DNA from: Elusimicrobium sp.
GTDB lineage: Bacteria; Elusimicrobiota; Elusimicrobia; Elusimicrobiales; Elusimicrobiaceae
Direction of reading: 5' to 3'
NCBI GenBank assembly: GCA_015062115.1
Contig: SUVG01000003.1
Location: forward strand, 1-64,000
Length of the DNA stretch: 64,000 nt
The notes under the pieces were generated by a model that was given only the letters and a program-made list of their open reading frames with translations, was not told where the DNA came from and ran no database searches. Of this stretch, positions 2,716 through 3,375 are shown one piece after another; positions within the stretch are counted from its first letter, which is position 1, and the number at the start of each line of letters is the position of its first letter. The translations under genes and the position numbers were made by a program.

Positions 2716-2743
2716 TTGAAAATAAAACAAATATCCTTATAGT
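2716..2743 (+). promoter_or_regulatory. Promoter of the ncRNA at 2750
   Basis: TTGAAA (2716-2721), 16-bp spacer, TATAGT (2738-2743). It predicts a transcript start near 2750, just ahead of a highly structured non-coding segment that ends in an intrinsic terminator. Confidence 0.6.
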
Positions 2744-2749
2744 ATGTGT

Positions 2750-2917
2750 AAGTACTTAGGGATCGCCCGACTTCCTTGGTTGCAGTTGTGAAGGTACAGC
2801 GTACTTTCCTATTGCTTAAGACCCGGATACGGAGCCCCCTTAGGAACGAGGAACATAAGTCATGATGATGACACTAATGAGCTAAACCCCCGAAATAATA
2901 TGCGGGGGTTTATTTTT
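2750..2917 (+). ncRNA. Structured non-coding RNA, family not identified
   Basis: A segment of about 168 nt with its own promoter and a strong rho-independent terminator, and no plausible ORF. Foldable elements by eye: a 15-bp hairpin at 2782-2815 (one bulge, one U-U mismatch, loop AGC); a CCG-GATA-CGG mini-hairpin at 2823-2832; GTCAT-GATG-ATGAC near 2859-2872; a longer pairing between ACTTCCTTG (2770-2778) and CGAGGAA downstream; and a possible closing stem between AGTACTTAG and CTAATGAGCT. It does not carry the signatures of SRP RNA, tmRNA, RNase P RNA or T-box leaders. 6S RNA is the best known alternative in size and long-range pairing, but I cannot show it. The next gene (mazG) is convergent, so it is not a riboswitch leader for that gene. 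Confidence 0.6.
2883..2917 (+). terminator. Rho-independent terminator of the ncRNA
   Basis: Perfect 10-bp stem TAAACCCCCG (2883-2892) / CGGGGGTTTA (2903-2912) with a 10-nt loop, followed by TTTTT. Read on the minus strand, the A-rich 5' flank could also let it work for mazG. Confidence 0.85.
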
Positions 2918-2954: not shown

Positions 2955-3338
2955 TTATTTTTCTGCCCGTTCCTTCTTTTTCATTTCCTTCCACAAGGCG
3001 AGCGCTTCTTCGGGGGTGGAGGCTTTGGCTCCGTCGCCGAACACATGCGGGTGGCGGCGGTGAAGCTTATCATACAAACCGGTGATAACATCTTCTATCG
3101 TAAATTTCCCCTCTTCAGCGGCAATTTGGCTGTGAATCAACACTTGCAACAAAACATCGCCCAACTCTTCCTTCATGTTTTCGTCATCTTTATTGTTAAT
3201 AGCATCGATAAGTTCCTGCGCTTCGTTCTGCAAACATTTAATCAGGGTTTCGTGTGTTTGTTTTTTATCCCACGGGCAACCGTTCGGCCCGCGCAAAATA
3301 GCAAAAGTTTCCACCAAATCGTTAAAAGTAGGTTTCAT
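2955..3338 (-). CDS. mazG: MazG-family nucleoside triphosphate pyrophosphohydrolase
   Basis: Hydrolyses (d)NTPs to NMP and pyrophosphate, usually as house-cleaning. The 127-residue product holds a single MazG domain with the family signature: GCPWDKKQTHETL near the N-terminus, and the metal-binding pattern built from NEAQELIDAI and EELGDVLLQVL. E. coli MazG is a tandem-domain protein of about 263 residues, so this is the single-domain form. I chose the ATG at 3338 over an in-frame start at 3368 because AGAGG lies 7-8 nt upstream of it and the family starts close to this point. It is convergent with the ncRNA and divergent from the next gene. Confidence 0.9.
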   Translation of the reverse strand: MKPTFNDLVETFAILRGPNGCPWDKKQTHETLIKCLQNEAQELIDAINNKDDENMKEELGDVLLQVLIHSQIAAEEGKFTIEDVITGLYDKLHRRHPHVFGDGAKASTPEEALALWKEMKKKERAEK

Positions 3339-3367
3339 TTGTAGCCTCTTGGAAAAAATGGTATACA
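3339..3367 (+). promoter_or_regulatory. Possible promoter of the secreted protein gene at 3376
   Basis: TTGTAG (3339-3344), 17-bp spacer, TATACA (3362-3367). The predicted start falls at or within 2 nt of the ATG at 3376, and there is no Shine-Dalgarno between, consistent with a leaderless message. The match to consensus is moderate. Confidence 0.4.
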
Positions 3368-3375
3368 TTTATTAT

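Follow-up and report, generated by a model that had tools for sequence, protein, structure and literature searches.

The stretch of Elusimicrobium DNA analysed here (64,000 nucleotides, hereafter the window) holds a candidate small RNA gene made up of a promoter, an RNA body and a terminator (Table 1). Upstream of it lies a squalene/phytoene synthase gene (1664-2671, PF00494) and downstream a MazG gene (2955-3368, minus strand, PF03819), so that the initial annotation was right in placing the RNA between two unrelated genes, the second of them convergent. As it had also claimed, no ORF of at least 60 aa covers the RNA body, or indeed the 2716-2917 unit. Elsewhere in the window, a 16S rRNA gene occupies positions 1-517 of the minus strand, where it is cut by the end of the stretch.

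Table 1. Features of the candidate RNA gene, in window coordinates
Feature	Position	Strand	Composition or basis
RNA gene locus	2716-2917	+	promoter, RNA body and terminator
Predicted promoter, sigma-70-type, TTGAAA-16-TATAGT	2716-2743	+	TTGA -35 and spacer conserved in homologues
RNA, about 168 nt	2750-2917	+	start inferred 7 nt past the -10; end at terminator T-run
Rod domain, about 90 nt	2755-2843	+	RNAalifold, pair counts, tree-based compensatory test
Rod closing stem	2755-2761/2837-2843	+	RNAalifold consensus
Rod middle stem	2765-2781/2820-2835	+	RNAalifold consensus
Rod apical stem, 3-nt loop	2782-2797/2801-2815	+	RNAalifold consensus
Invariant core, 5' strand, UUGGUUGCAGUUG	2776-2788	+	mostly paired, hardly varying (49 sequences)
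Invariant core, 3' strand, with unpaired bulge directly before AGACCC	2808-2824	+	conservation, pairing probability, fold
Single-stranded purine-rich element, GGAA(A/C)GAGGAACA(U)	2844-2856	+	conserved, predicted unpaired on average
Small hairpin, GUCAU-GAUG-AUGAC	2859-2872	+	GTC...GAC in 49/50 homologues
Putative mini-ORF, ATGATGATGACACTAATGAGCTAA (MMMTLMS*)	2862-2885	+	ATG-to-TAA frame in 50/50 homologues
Intrinsic terminator, 10-bp stem, 10-nt loop, T5	2883-2917 (stem 2883-2892/2903-2912)	+	fold and conservation

The TTGAAA-16-TATAGT promoter of the initial annotation is present at the expected place. A promoter scan within the window alone performed near chance (4 found, 3.1 expected), and what makes this promoter convincing is instead its conservation among homologues: the TTGA of the -35 element was found upstream in 50 of 50 distinct homologues, and in 44 of them 16 nt separate it from the best -10 element. 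(These 50 come from 53 matches, less L028, which is cut, L103, whose RNA is identical to that of L072, and one more duplicate.) The perfect 10-bp terminator with T5 also held up, its nine modelled pairs showing no variation at all in 28 of 28 sequences. In the window and its homologues the terminator hairpin (2883-2912) is unusually constant, with an invariant stem and a loop most of which is nearly so, and this constancy may point to a second role for the hairpin. The RNA as delimited in Table 1 has a predicted folding energy of -54.8 kcal/mol (z = -3.55), and just one of 200 shuffled sequences was equally stable. With a conserved promoter and a terminator of its own, independent of its neighbours, the gene is built as a stand-alone small RNA.

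The family appears to be confined to a single genus of gut Elusimicrobiaceae. When we searched 340 Elusimicrobiota genomes with R1, a covariance model built on the rod, 59 of the 66 genomes of the same genus (its own included) gave matches of 98-122 bits, and the only others, two in a distant family at about 21 bits (E 0.05 and 0.07), were set aside as chance-level scores. G020 is among the genomes that the model missed, but blastn detected a truncated copy of the RNA there at a contig end; G005 contains two different copies (G005:C25 and G005:C129, sharing 87% and 82% identity with the copy in the window), through either true duplication or a mixed bin. A blastn search of 61 genomes with 173 bases matched 32, namely the source genome and 31 of 36 of the same genus, and none of the 24 genomes of a second family. 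Pattern scanning of 84,980 species genomes returned 45 stretches, for which the named hosts were all of Elusimicrobia type, Candidatus Avelusimicrobium excrementipullorum being one named carrier. Beside crtB in sister genera (L111-L114, filters off) we found no relative beyond chance (best 14.0 bits, E 0.077); either the need for its function is not widespread, or its evolution is too rapid for recognition in those genera. A mobile-element origin was discarded, there being no plasmid or phage matches; two IMG/VR contigs fit the loose pattern but not the covariance model and were attributed to chance.

The genes that flank the RNA change from genome to genome. Counting ORF groups present in at least four loci, the upstream gene across 46 loci is crtB-like in 22, sodium:alanine-symporter-like in 18 (the one member tested matched PF01235) and mazG in three, with none listed in the remaining three. 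The downstream gene is a convergent mazG in many loci, a prepilin-like ORF in others and an unrelated ORF elsewhere; it is mostly convergent to the RNA, and in L038 a same-strand 787-aa ORF begins 108 nt downstream. Two loci, L031 and L037, have the RNA turned round while the gene pair on either side is unchanged. A structured RNA with a terminator at its end could in principle regulate the gene downstream in cis, as leader or attenuator, but that gene is the convergent MazG gene here and a different one among the homologues, and the inversion of the RNA in these two loci also speaks against such a role. We therefore reject attenuation on the neighbour changes and regard any leader function as extremely improbable: in agreement with the initial annotation, the RNA is autonomous and belongs to neither neighbour. 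As a separate matter, the prepilin-like ORF adjoins the RNA gene in 10 of the 46 loci (L039, L040, L046, L052, L053, L059, L061, L063, L072 and L074; the one member tested has the N-methylation motif PF07963), as though insertions favoured this place between the genes.

The RNAalifold consensus of 28 sequences consists of the closing, middle and apical stems of a rod plus the terminator, with 96.9% of cells paired (rows L028 and L030, at contig ends, were left out of A1 and A2). Changes on both sides were seen in 16 of 42 pairs, compared with a mean of 9.5 in shuffled alignments, and none of 500 shuffles reached either this count or the covariation score of 0.254 (0.109 in shuffles). When the pairing partner was slid by 1-3 columns as a control, at most 51.1% of cells were paired and at most seven pairs were changed on both sides. 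The number of further pair types was not in excess over shuffles (96 of 500 reached the observed value). Because kinship among sequences inflates tests of this shuffle type, we repeated the analysis on a tree of the 50 distinct sequences, on the branches of which 35-38 compensatory double changes occur over 19-20 pairs; 60 simulated data sets, matched for the substitutions on each branch, gave a mean of 1.8 and a maximum of 5. On the same tree, about 70% of single changes retained the pair, versus 34% in the null. The covariation that the initial annotation had proposed to look for is there when pairs are pooled. When every column pair was tested against a tree-based null, none was significant individually (best E = 0.4), although several of the top pairs were pairs of the model; the covariation support is decisive in the pooled tree test only.

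Two of the helices originally drawn are present: the 2782-2815 hairpin, although with interruptions, and the GTCAT/ATGAC hairpin, whose arms hardly vary and therefore give no covariation signal. The proposed ACTTCCTTG/CGAGGAA pairing is possible in the window sequence alone, but finds no support: UCC 2773-2775 pairs with GGA 2825-2827 instead, with compensated changes at two of these three pairs in homologue L027, and CGAGGAA is predicted to be unpaired on average.

Mean pairwise identity is 79% in the RNA and 60% in the promoter stretch, against 24% upstream and 18% downstream, which we take as background. In a conservation and pairing profile of 49 sequences (L042, at a contig end, was left out), the least variable positions of the rod are 2778-2788 and 2808-2824, nearly all of which are paired; the next conserved block after this core is the purine-rich element, which is unpaired on average.

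Rfam 15 gave no gathering-level match at the RNA locus in a scan of the 64-kb window, nor at five homologous loci, and at E values up to 10 there were only sub-threshold matches, mostly over the terminator. The best of these (isrJ, on the other strand and over the terminator, Yfr10 and Leu_leader) scored below gathering level and were dismissed as terminator-based. As had been suspected from the lack of their signatures, the models for tmRNA (RF00023), SRP RNA (RF00169, RF01854), RNase P RNA and 6S RNA are all without a match at the locus, and we rejected tmRNA, SRP RNA and canonical 6S RNA as its identity; the genome's own tmRNA is at G000:C2:210962-211308. We also found no paper describing this RNA in the open-licence PMC literature. 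From the Rfam scans, distribution, covariation, promoter and neighbours, then, the existence of an RNA gene as a sequence-level entity seems to us close to certain, and the central claim of the initial annotation, that of an independently transcribed, structured, uncatalogued and lineage-specific RNA, is well supported as far as sequence goes; the regulatory role that it also proposed is putative.

The initial annotation had also weighed whether the RNA might belong, in strongly diverged form, to a known family, with 6S RNA as its main alternative; this finds no support here. According to PMC8876501, 6S RNA is a rod of about 200 nt in which two arms flank a central bubble, and our RNA, likewise stand-alone and rod-shaped, is of similar size; in addition, no 6S RNA elsewhere exceeded the RF00013 cut-off in eight Elusimicrobiaceae genomes. 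For 2680-2960, RF00013 gave no match even at E values up to 10; in the source genome (G000) it gave none at E 0.001 and just one chance-level match (15.3 bits) away from the locus, and we found no paper on 6S RNA in Elusimicrobia in the open-licence PMC literature. However, the missing match weighs little, since the model reached its cut-off in just 4 of 14 control genomes. The architecture of the fold is a stronger argument: the covariation-supported structure has no large central bubble of the 6S type, the interruptions of the rod being a few nucleotides each (the largest is a bulge of about 5 nt), and unlike 6S RNA ours continues for 74 nt beyond the closing stem in a 3' tail with a hairpin and the terminator. 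The Ms1 RNA of Actinobacteria, which PMC9130861 reports to bind the core of RNA polymerase, is similar in that it too is structured, stands alone and has been described from a single phylum; our RNA is not known to bind the polymerase core, and the two were compared here through the Rfam scan. We consider a polymerase-binding RNA of diverged 6S or Ms1-like type unlikely, with only a slight chance of being correct.

Antisense pairing is the commonest mode of action among bacterial sRNAs, and Hfq-independent small RNAs from intergenic regions form a general class with their own promoter and terminator. Our RNA resembles this class in having both, in being conserved in close relatives only and in exposing a conserved single-stranded arm, and it might act in trans, free of Hfq, by pairing its GGAAAGAGGAACA arm or another unpaired stretch with mRNAs. 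Against this, Hfq was found in none of eight genomes (and in 5 of 14 controls), perfect complements of the arm were not enriched in 26 genomes (82, self-matches included, versus 113 for a reversed control pattern; the test covered one exact 11-mer), and in G015, G021, G076 and G082 the single match lies inside the RNA gene itself. Short or imperfect seeds are usual for antisense RNAs, which makes an antisense reading with short seeds possible. Unlike in that class, though, the invariant positions are mostly paired rather than in an exposed seed, and on balance we think antisense action doubtful, if worth keeping in mind.

A protein-binding RNA is favoured by the concentration of invariant positions in a paired, bulged helix (2778-2788/2808-2823), by the lack of a recurring perfect antisense target and by the failure to find Hfq. 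Selection has frozen paired positions that a simple antisense RNA would not need, from which we infer a ribonucleoprotein function, and a frozen helix would be expected if the folded shape itself is what is recognised; such helices could instead owe their constancy to tertiary contacts or to an alternative fold. In our working model, the housekeeping RNA polymerase would transcribe the gene, the transcript would end at its own terminator, and the RNA would work in trans as a ribonucleoprotein, with the invariant helix and bulge of the rod serving as docking site for a putative protein partner other than Hfq and the exposed GGAAAGAGGAACA arm contacting a second partner. We hold this whole scheme of an autonomous, genus-specific ribonucleoprotein RNA tentatively, at a little under even chances.

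The 3' part of the RNA could also be read as coding: beyond the structured domain a mini-ORF (M-x-M-T-x-M-S-stop) would be translated, and as its stop codon falls within the terminator's foot, ribosomes on it could affect termination or RNA stability. An in-frame ATG-to-TAA stretch of 5-7 codons behind an AGGA is present in 50 of 50 homologues, whereas a start codon occurs in the other two frames in just 9 and 1 of the 50, and by eye length changes in the alignments are of 3 nt within the frame and of 1-2 nt just upstream. The distance from the Shine-Dalgarno motif to the ATG, however, is 8-16 nt and mostly at least 9, which is long compared with the genes of the window (16 of 51 genes have an SD-like 5-mer, in 13 of them at 4-7 nt, and the other 35 show none), and four sequences have ATA in place of the first ATG, their one remaining ATG standing at 16 nt. 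The repeated AUGs are equally well explained by the hairpin arms and a possible CAU/AUG pairing, and there is no constant downstream gene to control. Such a dual-function RNA seems to us improbable, and the composite of a genus-wide protein-docking rod with an M-x-M-T-x-M-S frame whose translation tunes the RNA's own termination or lifetime slightly more so.

The protein-binding RNA that we favour may have an unusual partner, given that neither SRP proteins nor Hfq were found in the lineage. The M domain of Ffh (PF02978) was detected in none of 119 Elusimicrobiota genomes (the source genome and 118 others; none of the 103 of high completeness) and in 14 of 14 controls, and SRP RNA models reached their cut-off in none of eight genomes. 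PMC7987157 already notes that SRP homologues occur in few Elusimicrobia, but reports one Ffh and one FtsY accession.

We found no small-RNA study of this phylum in the open-licence PMC literature, and the locus adds to it a well-supported, uncatalogued RNA family, for which the alignment and pair table are sufficient to build a family model and to design probes. The RNA is present in nearly every searched species of a gut genus, and its core consists of base pairs that do not vary.
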